From assembly GCA_030168575.1 (NCBI GenBank), contig CP115555.1:620001-684000 (forward strand): a stretch of DNA of 64,000 nucleotides. The letters are read 5' to 3'. The DNA comes from Methanomassiliicoccales archaeon LGM-RCC1 (lineage in GTDB: Archaea; Thermoplasmatota; Thermoplasmata; Methanomassiliicoccales; Methanomethylophilaceae). The position numbers and the translations under genes are program-made. A model generated the notes under the pieces. It made no database searches, was not told the origin of the DNA, and saw only the letters and a list, made by a program, of their open reading frames with translations. Below are positions 41,738 to 53,561 of this stretch, one piece after another (within the stretch, counting starts at the first letter, position 1; each line of letters opens with the position of its first letter).

Positions 41738-42145
41738 TCATAAACTGAACTTCATATGGATCGTTCCTTCTCTATGGCAACAGGGGCAGCCATCAGCGAT
41801 CTTGAATCCCATATTGCGGAACAATTCTGTCAGCGTTCCGTTTCTATCGATGGAATGGATCGTCACGGAATCCTTTCCCTGAAAGATGGCCATTGCCACT
41901 ATCGATTTCAGCATGGGCTCGATGGTGTCCTCATTATCAGGAAATGTATGGATCATGTTGATCCTGAACGATGGGTCCTTGTCGAACATCACGATCCCCA
42001 CAGGAGCCCCATCCTTCACCGCCAGCACAGATGCAGACCCTTTGCTGTTGAATCTCATATCCGTATGATTGTCGGCTTTCGAAAAATCATCTAACAGACC
42101 ATCCACCCAATCAGGATGATTCCCGCCTTCGAATACCTTGATCAT
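41738..42145 (-). CDS. Small GNAT-like acetyltransferase-like protein
   Basis: 135 aa. The strand pattern SVLAVKDGAPVGIVMFD and later ELFRNMGFKI (motif B like) suggests a degenerate GNAT fold without a clear acetyl-CoA loop. A CPCCH cluster lies near the C-terminus. Assignment is tentative. Divergent from the amber-interrupted TetR gene. Confidence 0.45.
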   Translation of the reverse strand: MIKVFEGGNHPDWVDGLLDDFSKADNHTDMRFNSKGSASVLAVKDGAPVGIVMFDKDPSFRINMIHTFPDNEDTIEPMLKSIVAMAIFQGKDSVTIHSIDRNGTLTELFRNMGFKIADGCPCCHREGTIHMKFSL

Positions 42146-42280
42146 TCGCCCACCGTAACAACAGAACGAAGTGGATTAATCTCTTTTTAAGCATAAGCGC
42201 TGTGGAATCCGTTATTTTTACCATTGAGCAAAATTGTAAAATTATAATTCATCTTAACTATTTTGTTGGTAGAGTCTTCC

Positions 42281-42835
42281 ATGCCGAAAATCGGGAACAC
42301 CAAAGAGATCCTGGCCGATTCCCTCTGCAATCTGGCCGAAACCAAACCGGTGAACGACATCACCGTTCTGGACATCGTGAGCAATTGCGGTCTGACGGCC
42401 CCCACATTCTACAACCATTTCAGGAACAAGTACGATCTGATCGTTTGGTATTATACGAGGCTATGGAGCAGCGTATTGGACAAGACCGGTAAGGAAGGAT
42501 ATGTGTGGCGCGATGCCGTTCATGACGGTTTGAGGATGTAGGCCGAGAACCGGAAGGTCATGATCAATCTTCTCGACTACACGGACGGGAAAAAAAGCAT
42601 AGTAGAGCGCATGAAGGAGGTCAATGTAGAGTTGACACTTTCAGAGATACGGAAGAACACTTCCAAGGACCAGACCCTGCCCCCGGACACAGACGAACTG
42701 GTCAGGTTCTACTGTTACGGGACGTTCGAATATGTGCATTATATGCTGAAGCGTGACGATTTCGATCCTGATCATGTCGCGGATATCTGCGAGTACGGGC
42801 TCCCATACGTCCTGAGATTGTTCCTTTACAATTAA
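42281..42835 (+). CDS. TetR-family regulator interrupted by an in-frame TAG
   Basis: 185 codons from ATG 42281 to TAA 42835 in one frame, with a single TAG at 42539-42541 (codon 87). Residues about 25-55 are the TetR helix-turn-helix (ITVLDIVSNCGLTAPTFYNHFRNKYDLI, quoted here as ITVLDIVSNCGLTAP and TFYNHFRNKYDL). After the TAG the sequence AENRKVMINLLDYT continues a normal TetR ligand-binding domain. No restart codon with a Shine-Dalgarno is near. Three readings are possible: UAG is read as pyrrolysine, UAG is suppressed, or this is a pseudogene by one substitution. The intact remainder of the frame argues that it is recent or functional. Confidence 0.65.
42539..42541 (+). other. In-frame amber codon, candidate pyrrolysine
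   Basis: TAG within the TetR gene, flanked by in-frame coding sequence on both sides (LRM before, AENRK after). Confidence 0.4.
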
Positions 42836-42885
42836 CTTTACAAAATATAGAATATGTATAATAAATGGGCCTGATTACGATATTC

Positions 42886-42894
42886 TTTAAATAA
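42886..42894 (+). promoter_or_regulatory. TATA box of the ferritin operon
   Basis: TTTAAATAA about 45 bases before ATG 42935; AAGGAG at 42920-42925 serves as ribosome binding site. Confidence 0.55.
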
Positions 42895-42934
42895 GCTCCA
42901 AATGACTTTTGTGCAAATCAAGGAGTTTTTTTCA

Positions 42935-43393
42935 ATGTCCGATAAAGAGAAGTTGATATCTGATATGCAGTTCATTGTGACCCATCTTTCCCAGCAGGCA
43001 GATGGACACGCCATCCAGTCGAGGATATTCGCATCCATGGGCCTTGCGAAACTGGAAGCAAAGTACGCAGAGCATGCGGAGGAGGAGAGGGGCTATGTCA
43101 TCCAGCTTGTGGACCGCATCCTCGACCTCGGAGGAGATGTCAAGCTGGAAGCGAAGCCCGCGGCACCTATGACTAAGGATCCCGTCGAGTGGGTGAAGTA
43201 CGATCTGAAAGTATCCATCGACGGACTCAACCTTCTAAAGAAGATGCTGGACGAGGCCAAGGACGATTACACGACCTTCGACATCCTCAAAGACTACTAC
43301 AAGGATGAGGAAGAGGACATGTATTGGGGAGAGCAGCAGCTCGAGCTGATAGAATGCATCGGGGTTCAGAACTGGATCCTCCAGCAGATCTGA
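42935..43393 (+). CDS. Bacterioferritin/ferritin-like diiron protein
   Basis: 152 aa from ATG 42935. Four-helix bundle with AKYAEHAEEERGYVIQLVDRI (first diiron ligands Glu-X2-His, quoted in part as YAEHAEEERGY) and DEEEDMYWGEQQLELIE in helix 4. Likely stores iron or removes peroxide. Leads an operon with a small winged helix and a rubredoxin-fused metallo-beta-lactamase protein, a set that suggests O2/peroxide defence. Confidence 0.8.
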   Translation: MSDKEKLISDMQFIVTHLSQQADGHAIQSRIFASMGLAKLEAKYAEHAEEERGYVIQLVDRILDLGGDVKLEAKPAAPMTKDPVEWVKYDLKVSIDGLNLLKKMLDEAKDDYTTFDILKDYYKDEEEDMYWGEQQLELIECIGVQNWILQQI

Positions 43394-43402
43394 GGTGGGA
43401 TC

Positions 43403-43585
43403 ATGGGAGATCGCGAGATAATACTCGAAGCCATGAAGAAGGCAGGCGAACCCCTCAACGCAGGAAAGGTCGCCGAACTGACCGGCCTCGACAGGAAGGC
43501 GGTCGACAAGGCCTTCGCAGAGATGAAGAAGGACGGGACCATCGTTTCACCGGTCAGGTGCAAATGGGAACCTGCCAAGAAGTGA
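43403..43585 (+). CDS. Small winged-helix protein
   Basis: 60 aa. A minimal winged helix: IILEAMKKAGEPLNAGKVAELTG, LDRKAVDKAFAEMKKDGTIV, then a short wing with VRCKWEPAKK. Could be the regulator of the operon or a DNA-binding accessory. Starts 9 bases after the ferritin stop with GGTGGGA. Confidence 0.7.
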   Translation: MGDREIILEAMKKAGEPLNAGKVAELTGLDRKAVDKAFAEMKKDGTIVSPVRCKWEPAKK

Positions 43586-43594
43586 AGGATATCG

Positions 43595-44551
43595 ATGTTC
43601 GTCAAGGCAGTGAAGCTATATGAGAAGGGCTTCATGACACAGCCCTTCGCCATGGGCGGAGAGGACGGGATGGAGGCATTCGATGCCTCCGTCAGGTACA
43701 GGTCGTCACTTCAGAACTATCTGATCGATACGGGAGACGAGGTCATACTCGTCGATACCGGAATGCCCCTGGAGACACCGGACGCGGTCCCTGATGAGAA
43801 CACCATAATCTACATGGGTTCGCGCATCAAGGATTACGTATCCGCACTGAAGGATATCGGATATGAGCCGGAGCAGGTCACGCGCATACTTATCACACAC
43901 AAGCATGACGATCACTCCGGTGAGATCAGGAGCTTCCCCAACGCAAAGGTGTATATCGCCCCTGAGGACGCCGATGCGCTGGGCCTCCAGGGGGACAACA
44001 TCATCCGTGTGGACTACGATGACGGCCCGTACCATAACTTCCCCGCATGCAAGAAGATCACAGACGGGGTCTACTTCGTGGAGGCCAAGGGCCATACCAA
44101 AGGCAACAGCATCGTCATCGTCGAGGACGGTGACGAGTACTACATGATCCATGGCGACATAACTTACACCGACGAGGCCCTCTACGCCAACAAGCTGTCG
44201 GTGGTGTTCGAGGATCTGGAGGCCTCAAGGAGGACCTTGGACAACGTGGTGGAGTTCATTAGCAACAATAAGACCATCTACCTGTCCACCCACACCCCTC
44301 TCGGCCCTGAGAATCTGGAGAACCACTACGTGATCGATCTGGCCAACCCGCCCGAGACCATACCCGTTGGGGAAATCGTGATCAAGACGGCCACCGGGAA
44401 GTACATCTGCACCGTATGCGGTTATGTGTACGATCCCGCGGTCGGCGACCCCAGCAGGGACATCCCTCCCGGAACGCCGTTCGAGGATCTTCCAGATGAT
44501 TGGCGCTGTCCGAGATGCAAGGCCGTTAAAACGAAATTCAACAAAGCATGA
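43595..44551 (+). CDS. Metallo-beta-lactamase fold hydrolase fused to rubredoxin
   Basis: 318 aa. The N-terminal MBL domain has T-H102-K-H104-D-D106-H107 (THKHDDHSG), [12 protein letters not shown] and [12 protein letters not shown], giving a binuclear metal site. Residues 270-318 form a rubredoxin with C272-X2-C275 and C305-X2-C308 ([17 protein letters not shown]). The flavodoxin domain of true flavodiiron proteins is absent. The rubredoxin would feed electrons to the metal site or to a partner. Part of the ferritin operon. Confidence 0.85.
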
Positions 44552-44801: not shown

Positions 44802-45968
44802 TTGACATCGATTCCAAAATCACTCGAACCCTTAGAGGGACGTCCGAAGATCACCCTTTCTGATGTCCTCAGGAACATCCCTGTCATCAAGCGCCGTGCG
44901 AAGGAGTCCGGCTGTTGGCCCTTCGACACTGATGAATTTATAATCAAGCTGCTCAAAGGGGAAATGTCATTGGACGATCCTCTCCTTCAGGCGATACTTC
45001 TTGATTGGATTGAGAGTGAGGACTATAACAAATTTCTTAATCTCGAGACAGGCGAGTTCATATACGCCAAATCCGCCAAGAGGGGCAATGTGGTTTATGC
45101 GACGAGGAAGACCAAGAAGAGGGATGCCCTGAAGAATGCCATAGAGGGCAAGGTCTTCGATTACCCTGTCAAGGGATTCCGCAACAGGAGGATGACGAGG
45201 CTACTGCTATGTACGGTCAACTTCGATAGATCCCTGTTCACCTGCGAGGAGGCCTGGGCGGCTCTACGTTCCACCCCCATCGAAGGCCTCGACTACACAT
45301 ACAACGTCATAAACAAATTGAACGCCAACATCAGCAAGATTTTCGGCAAGCATGGTACGCTGACCTCGAAAGAGGCGCAGTCATCAGGCTATCCGGCACC
45401 GCATCTGATCTTCATCCTCGATGAACCCGTCATGGTGCAGCGTCATGTGGGGAGGGACGGGAAGGTCTCCTGGAGGATCTGCGACCAGAGGATACTGGAC
45501 AGGATCGGCAAAGGGCCCCTTATGAGGAAGCTCAGCAAGACGGATTATCGCAAGGCCATCCAGATGAACCCTGTGTGGAAGCACGGTTTCATCGATTTCG
45601 AGGGAATAGCCTCCGAGGAAGGGTCCAGATCAGGAAGGGATGCGATAACGTATCCGTTCAAGTATCTGGTCAAGTGCCTCACGCAGGACGGTTCCCATTC
45701 TATCAGGGATATACCGGACATCAATTCCGTGAAGGACAAGGACATGCGCACCATACTCTTCACGCATCTCGGTAACAAATGCTTCAGGACCAGGGATGTG
45801 TCGTTCGGCAAGGGTTTCAAGGACCGTATCGGCATGCTCCCGGAGGAGAAGCCCGACGAACCCAGCCAATGGAAGCGCATCAGGACCCTGACGGGCTACG
45901 AATACGATTTCATCAAGGCCGTCGAAGAACAGAGGGCGATCATCAAGCTTAGGTGCACCATCAGGTAG
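44802..45968 (+). CDS. Element-encoded protein, possible replication initiator
   Basis: 388 aa if started at TTG 44802; no ATG fits and the start is uncertain. Not clearly recognised. The middle part (about 130-235) has RRMTRLLLCTVNFDRSLF, a stretch NANISKIFGKHGTL and SSGYPAPHLIFILD, a pattern reminiscent of Rep/relaxase-like proteins (strand, helix, GYPH-H-like strand). The usual HUH pair is not complete, so this is only a suggestion. An inverted repeat TCAAGCC/GGCTTGA (44748-44754, 44762-44768) lies just upstream. It ends in TAG, one of only two stops of that kind among intact genes in the window. Confidence 0.5.
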   Translation: MTSIPKSLEPLEGRPKITLSDVLRNIPVIKRRAKESGCWPFDTDEFIIKLLKGEMSLDDPLLQAILLDWIESEDYNKFLNLETGEFIYAKSAKRGNVVYATRKTKKRDALKNAIEGKVFDYPVKGFRNRRMTRLLLCTVNFDRSLFTCEEAWAALRSTPIEGLDYTYNVINKLNANISKIFGKHGTLTSKEAQSSGYPAPHLIFILDEPVMVQRHVGRDGKVSWRICDQRILDRIGKGPLMRKLSKTDYRKAIQMNPVWKHGFIDFEGIASEEGSRSGRDAITYPFKYLVKCLTQDGSHSIRDIPDINSVKDKDMRTILFTHLGNKCFRTRDVSFGKGFKDRIGMLPEEKPDEPSQWKRIRTLTGYEYDFIKAVEEQRAIIKLRCTIR

Positions 45969-46000
45969 CAGAACGGTGCCCCCGCACGACAGGAGGTCGC

Positions 46001-46879
46001 ATGAGCGGGTATCCGTTCTCGGACGGCATCGACGATTACGTCGGATCATTGAATGCGACGGAAGCATCCAAGGATTCCGCCAGACGTCGCCTCGGCAATA
46101 TCGGGAGGGTGTTCCATCAGCTGAAGACGGAGCACAAGATCCCCTCGGACAACCCTTCCAGGATATCCGTGGACGGTGTCAGGGCATTCATCGAAAGACG
46201 CAGATCCGATGGAGTGTCGGCCAGCACTGTCAGGAGGGACCTCCAGTATCTCGACGGTTATCTAGCCTTCCACGACAACGATGCAGCGGAGATAATCCTC
46301 ACGGAGGAGTCGGATCGTTCCAAGGATTCATCGAAAGCGGCATTGGACAGGATCCTCAGGATCATCTCTGGACCCGACAAGCTTCCCAACGACCTGCTCA
46401 GAGCCTTCTCTTTCGTGATACTAGTCATAGTCCTCGGTACGACCCCCGACCGTATCCGCAGATCTGTTCTGGTCCATGGTCTGGCCAGCCAGAGCATCAT
46501 GGATTACAATCTGGAATTCATAGGCGCTGACAACATATTGCATAACATCAAGCTGGATTTCAGGAGATTGCCTATAATCGAGAGATACCTCAAGGATCTG
46601 GTCTACAGGAATCAGCTGACAACAAGAACACCTATGTTCCCTTCCAAGGATCCTCTTTTCAGATTCATAGGTCCAGATGATATGCACAGGCTCAAACAGA
46701 TAGTCCAGAAACATATCGGTATAGAATTCGATTATCGCATCTGTCAGCGTCTGTTCAGGGAGAGGGAGTCATCCGACGATCCGGAGTACCATGAACAATC
46801 TCTGGGGAACCATGTGCCCGACATCCACTACTCCTATCCTAAGAAAGGGGTACTCGGAAGGATCAGGGGCATCTTTTGA
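46001..46879 (+). CDS. Divergent tyrosine recombinase (integrase-like)
   Basis: 292 aa from ATG 46001 behind a perfect AGGAGGT. Residues 1-90 match the SAM-like core-binding domain of phage integrases (DYVGSLNATEASKDSARRRL, VRAFIERRRSDGVSASTVRR). The catalytic half has a box-I-like arginine (LGTTPDRIRRS), an RLFRE segment where HxxR is expected, LGNH in place of LGHS, and a terminal HYSYPK that could supply the tyrosine. The first histidine is missing, so activity is uncertain. The position beside the att site supports an integrase role. Confidence 0.6.
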   Translation: MSGYPFSDGIDDYVGSLNATEASKDSARRRLGNIGRVFHQLKTEHKIPSDNPSRISVDGVRAFIERRRSDGVSASTVRRDLQYLDGYLAFHDNDAAEIILTEESDRSKDSSKAALDRILRIISGPDKLPNDLLRAFSFVILVIVLGTTPDRIRRSVLVHGLASQSIMDYNLEFIGADNILHNIKLDFRRLPIIERYLKDLVYRNQLTTRTPMFPSKDPLFRFIGPDDMHRLKQIVQKHIGIEFDYRICQRLFRERESSDDPEYHEQSLGNHVPDIHYSYPKKGVLGRIRGIF

Positions 46880-52748: not shown

Positions 52749-53561
52749 ATGCAGGTCCACGTGCTTGCCAGCGGAAGCGACGGTAATTGCACCATTATCG
52801 AGAATGACGGCGAAGCCATAATGATCGACGCCGGCATCAGCTGCAGGAGGATCCTGTCCTTGATGGACCGTGCCGGGGTCGACAAGGAAATCGTCAAGGC
52901 CATTCTCATAACCCACGAGCATTCCGACCATGTTTCCGGCGCAGGAGCGACAGCTAGGAAGCTGGACATCCCCATAGTGGCGAACAACGCTACCTTCGAC
53001 GCTTCCAATCTGGGCAGCGTTCAGCATTGGCTTTACAAATCCAACGAGTACATCGACATCGGGCAGTTCCATGTCACTCCCCTGCCGACATCGCACAACG
53101 CTGTCGAGCCCAACTGCTATTTCACCGAGGTGGACGACGACAAGAAGGTGCTGGTCGCAACCGATACGGGAAAGTTCTCCTTCCAGATCGAGCATGCTCT
53201 GTCCCTTGCGGATATCGCTGTCATAGAGGCGAATTATGACAAGGACATGCTGGTCAACGGACCTTACCCTCCGAGCCTCAAAAGCCTCATCGGAAGCGAC
53301 CACGGCCACATGAACAATCTGGATACGGCCAGGGCGATCAAGAAGACCATGAAGGATGACAGCAGCAGGCAGATATTCCTGGCCCATCTCAGCAAGACCA
53401 ACAACACCCCGGACACCGCCAGACAGTCCGTTTCGGATTACACCGGAATAAAGAGGTACAAGATAGACTGCCTTGAATTCCCCGGCGATACGCGCACCCT
53501 CAAAGTTCGGGAGCGATCGCGACAGCCTTGTTCGATTTTATCAGGATCTCGGCCATCGTAG
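52749..53561 (+). CDS. Metallo-beta-lactamase fold hydrolase (YycJ/WalJ-like)
   Basis: 270 aa. Metal site THEHSDHVSG (H56, H58, D60, H61), then LPTSHNAVEPNCYF, ATDTGKFS, IEANYDKDML and FLAHLSKTNNTP. This pattern is that of the YycJ-like group, probable nucleases. The last 62 bases overlap the convergent GINS gene. It ends in TAG, with a TGA three codons later, so readthrough would add only three residues. Confidence 0.85.
   Translation: MQVHVLASGSDGNCTIIENDGEAIMIDAGISCRRILSLMDRAGVDKEIVKAILITHEHSDHVSGAGATARKLDIPIVANNATFDASNLGSVQHWLYKSNEYIDIGQFHVTPLPTSHNAVEPNCYFTEVDDDKKVLVATDTGKFSFQIEHALSLADIAVIEANYDKDMLVNGPYPPSLKSLIGSDHGHMNNLDTARAIKKTMKDDSSRQIFLAHLSKTNNTPDTARQSVSDYTGIKRYKIDCLEFPGDTRTLKVRERSRQPCSILSGSRPS

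Follow-up and report, generated by a model that had tools for sequence, protein, structure and literature searches.

An in-frame amber codon, probably decoded as pyrrolysine, in a TetR-family regulator gene of a Methanomassiliicoccales archaeon

Amber codons in pyrrolysine-decoding methanogens

Gut members of the Methanomassiliicoccales that decode UAG as pyrrolysine (Pyl) carry diverse single amber genes, many of them with TAG-free homologs, as described for Methanomethylophilus alvus (PMC4153887) and for ISO4-H5 (PMC5011839). In M. alvus, TAG makes up 1.6% of the stops and 16 extra Pyl proteins were predicted, one of them an Rv0623-like transcription factor, and the in-frame amber was argued to be a stable mutation in a suppressing background (PMC4153887). 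For ISO4-H5, in-frame ambers were reported in 46 genes (PMC5011839). An amber-containing TetR has also been described in Methanosarcina acetivorans and M. barkeri (the MA2902 cluster), where the authors regarded the presence of Pyl as unproven (PMC1914089, PMC3639795).

The locus described here lies in a window of 64,000 nucleotides of Methanomassiliicoccales archaeon LGM-RCC1, within a single 1.66-Mb contig. Its genome resembles those of M. alvus and ISO4-H5 in this assortment of amber genes, and shares with the former a very low use of TAG as a stop. Unlike in M. alvus, whose table of amber genes holds no TetR (PMC4153887), the interrupted gene encodes a DhaS-like TetR protein. As in MA2902, a TAG stands in frame within a TetR-family regulator gene of a methanogen that decodes Pyl, although the TAG form occurs in two Methanosarcina species there and in one genome here. 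The amber TetR adds to an already described kind, that of the extra amber genes in the family and of the amber TetR in Methanosarcina. The earlier note on this DNA had presented it as an unusual Pyl protein; decoding as Pyl is still the best explanation, while the Methanosarcina precedent takes away from its singularity.

We consider, with a probability of about 0.72, that this gene yields a full-length protein of 184 residues in which the UAG at codon 87 is decoded as Pyl, the amber being a tolerated mutation. Such a protein would add a transcription regulator to the genes probably carrying pyrrolysine outside methylamine metabolism, and would support the view that UAG behaves in this family almost as a sense codon. 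On the practical side, automatic annotation can split amber genes or discard them as pseudogenes.

The interrupted gene and its homologs

The gene (positions 42281..42835, plus strand) is 184 codons long and ends in TAA; codon 87 (42539..42541) is its one internal TAG. As had been noticed from the letters alone, the frame is intact on both sides of the TAG, which is seen in the translation (MPKIGNTKEI...HDGLRM*AENRKV...RLFLYN*), and the length is that of a TetR protein. With the TAG read as a residue, the helix-turn-helix domain TetR_N (PF00440; 42329..42442) matches above its cut-off (31.1 bits, E 1e-6). A match to TetR_C_8 at residues 76-170 spans the TAG and falls below the cut-off, and the NCBIfam DhaS model (TIGR02366) covers residues 7-154 with an E-value of 3.5e-14. 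The AlphaFold model (mean pLDDT 80) places residue 87 near the end of helix 76-89, past the DNA-binding region, and its best fold match in the PDB is 4mk6 (E 1.1e-6, TM 0.69), a DhaS-like protein from Listeria that is, together with DhaS itself (2iu5), the nearest solved structure by profile as well as by fold. With an N-terminal helix-turn-helix and a C-terminal domain that is all-helical in the model, the predicted product is assigned to the TetR family. It differs from DhaS, the activator of the dihydroxyacetone kinase operon, in scoring below the equivalog cut-off (53.2 vs 129 bits) and in lying next to genes for ferritin and rubredoxin instead of dhaKLM.

The main rival to Pyl decoding is that the gene is a young pseudogene, or the TAG a sequencing error: a recent TAG would mostly stop translation, the protein would be lost, and the 3' frame would not yet have decayed. 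We hold this to be unlikely, though well ahead of the other alternatives. The 97 codons that follow the TAG contain neither a frameshift nor a second stop, which speaks against it; a stop-free run of this length has a chance of about 0.6% at the local base composition. Homology is present on both sides of the TAG, in the profile matches and in the homologs, and codon-usage scores are alike in the two parts. Sequence identity to the homologs amounts to 44-48% in the N part and 29-34% in the C part, compared with 43-46% and 34-37% between the uninterrupted proteins of G009 and of G034 and G091. The lowest of these figures, the 29% of the C part to the nearest syntenic homolog, leans towards a pseudogene; on the whole, the C part appears to have diverged about as much as the homologs have among themselves, with no strong sign of decay in what is a weak test at 30-40% identity.

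A survey of 147 genomes of the order bears on the same question. In the homologs that lie beside the same ferritin-like gene, position 87 is Leu in G009, Tyr and Phe in the two copies of G034, and Phe in G091, and more distant TetR homologs have Thr or Cys. A further set of translated loci, usable for the plus-strand rows, gave F (L127), C (L129 and L132), S (L133) and I (L135). None of the 14 other TetR matches in the 147 genomes has an internal stop. The earlier note had counted a TAG confined to this strain against its own reading, and the TAG is indeed seen in this genome only, with a sense codon in all other homologs. This agrees with a pseudogene, as does the absence of both the tetR and the ferritin gene from the closest genome (G005), which makes both of them dispensable. 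By these comparisons codon 87 is not a conserved Pyl site, which argues against a conserved or purposeful amber residue. Most amber genes of the order, other than those for methyltransferases, likewise lack a conserved TAG; its absence from the homologs weakens the idea of purpose more than that of decoding, and in a UAG-decoding lineage it is not itself proof of a pseudogene. Elsewhere, a scan of genome contigs returned one close homolog only, in the SIG3 contig (that of G009), and the phage collection held distant TetR matches only.

Decoding of UAG across the genome

That the window belongs to a pyrrolysine-using lineage, as had been supposed from its stop codons, was borne out by the pyl genes, whose absence the earlier note had named as refuting its reading. 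ARAGORN located tRNA-Pyl (pylT), with a CUA anticodon, at L007:9440-9510, in one cluster with pylS, pylB, pylC and pylD, whose products all score above the NCBIfam cut-offs (TIGR02367, TIGR03910, TIGR03909 and TIGR03911). The PylS match is to the C-terminal domain; the protein is short and without an N-terminal domain, which is the expected form in Methanomassiliicoccales. Two mtmB genes (both PF05369) lie beside the pyl cluster, and mttB (TIGR02369) and mtbB (TIGR02368) elsewhere; all four reach full length only through a TAG.

Stop-codon usage was counted with a simple ORF caller on 748 kb of stretches, equivalent to 45% of the genome. Among 629 called ORFs the stops were TGA in 555, TAA in 58 and TAG in 16, and in 11 of these 16 a long coding-like sequence extends past the TAG: four methyltransferases, an aconitase, two copies of an IS110 transposase, a GDSL-lipase protein, a TraG-like protein, a 229-aa unknown protein and the TetR. 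Two of the remaining five are in the window, and three are short or doubtful. Within the window TGA prevails, and the count given in the earlier note was correct, the only other called genes ending in TAG being 44802-45968 and 52749-53561, with the next stop 11 and 3 codons further on, respectively. UAG is very probably decoded in this organism, because the pyl set is complete and accompanied by TAG-bearing methylamine methyltransferases, only 16 of 629 ORFs stop at TAG, and 11 of those 16 run on. Full Pyl machinery in a genome where TAG is nearly absent as a stop weighs against a pseudogene.

The aconitase gene (L075:6211-9033, minus strand; genome C1:1206211-1209033) shows the same amber pattern in a conserved enzyme, which also disfavours a pseudogene. 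Its TAG, at codon 175 from the first TTG of the ORF, is flanked by 174 and 766 codons. Since this TAG corresponds to Lys in close relatives, and the protein of the closest genome is otherwise 99% identical, the lineage appears to tolerate new amber codons in conserved genes. Being conserved, and with lysine in place of the amber in its relatives, aconitase would also be an easier test protein for Pyl decoding. The two copies of the IS110-family transposase (L077:3086-4123, and L101:18618-19208 plus downstream) each have a TAG at codon 197 and are alike around it; amber-containing transposases have been reported from Methanosarcina too. The other TAG-interrupted genes encode the large GDSL-lipase-like protein (L104:16858-19998), the TraG/T4SS-like protein (L111:5121-7226) and the 229-aa protein (L101:11486-12172, minus strand).

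Clearly TGA- or TAA-interrupted genes were not seen by eye in the 748-kb sample, another point against a pseudogene; the long TGA and TAA extensions were judged, also by eye, to be shadow ORFs or same-frame neighbours with their own start codons. TAG accounts for all six independent non-methyltransferase interruptions (p ~0.04). Under the codon usage of this genome, however, random nonsense mutation would yield TAG in about 59% of cases, making it the commonest product to be expected, which fits a pseudogene as well; for this reason the TAG-only interruptions, weakly significant after codon usage is considered, are weak evidence alone.

If codon 87 is decoded as we propose, a point mutation in a variable position of a helix would have created the amber, which would have been kept like a missense change, being tolerated as such because UAG is efficiently decoded in the lineage. 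tRNA-Pyl(CUA) would read the codon in competition with the release factor, and the TetR would work as an ordinary regulator of its own cluster; Pyl incorporation, TetR activity and the target genes are what we infer here. No PYLIS-like element matched at E<=10 in 42450-42750, and the RNA fold 3' of the TAG is nothing unusual (z-score -0.04); PYLIS is not required for Pyl decoding (PMC9499178).

In principle, UAG may either be read as Pyl or end translation (PMC9499178), and one could imagine two products whose ratio regulates, sensing the supply of Pyl: mostly an 86-residue DNA-binding fragment with some full-length protein made via Pyl, or else a separate C-terminal part translated from the ATG at 42560, where an ORF begins 3' of the TAG. 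This seems improbable to us, as the amber at codon 87 is not conserved, similar ambers occur in genes where such sensing would be senseless (aconitase, transposase), and the first fragment would be without most of the C-terminal domain. In TetR proteins, it is this domain that makes the dimer. The dedicated sensor of Pyl supply that the earlier note had envisaged is unsupported: the site is not conserved, and unrelated genes (aconitase, IS110 transposase, TraG-like) show the same amber pattern. Least credible is its furthest form, an amber TetR tying the expression of its iron/redox cluster to Pyl-tRNA supply, by which the genetic code would link methylamine metabolism to an iron or oxygen response.

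Gene neighbourhood and likely function

Downstream of the tetR gene, on the same strand, are its likely target, a ferritin-like gene (PF00210; 42902..43393 as the longest ORF, with the start probably at 42938), and a metallo-beta-lactamase plus rubredoxin gene (PF00753, PF00301; 43595..44551) that is kept in G009. A divergent gene on the minus strand (41738..42145) encodes a protein of 135 aa of unknown family, and a related ORF recurs by the tetR homologs. The intergenic region between the divergent genes (42146..42280) is the likely site of both promoter and operator; a search for upstream repeats identified no operator there, only weak AT-rich repeats.

The gene order around tetR recurs in G009 and partly in G034 and G091, and in the nine genomes that were compared the presence of the ferritin gene coincides exactly with that of tetR. 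Because each of the four genomes with close homologs has tetR next to the ferritin-like gene, the regulator probably controls its own cluster (the genes for the 135-aa protein, the ferritin-like protein and the metallo-beta-lactamase-rubredoxin protein), whose role, to judge by these positions, is perhaps in the iron or oxygen response. The cluster (41738-44551) is patchy across the family, and tetR evolves fast, with 38% protein identity to its homologs vs 75% for the well conserved ferritin next door.

Further downstream, the TAG-ended gene mentioned above continues for 11 codons past its TAG (44802-46001), and this TAG may be read through too, since the G009 homolog, 82% identical, is 408 aa long. 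In G009, this gene and the ORF that follows it (45953-46879) also lie close to the tetR cluster but on the opposite side of it, which suggests that the two form a mobile unit.
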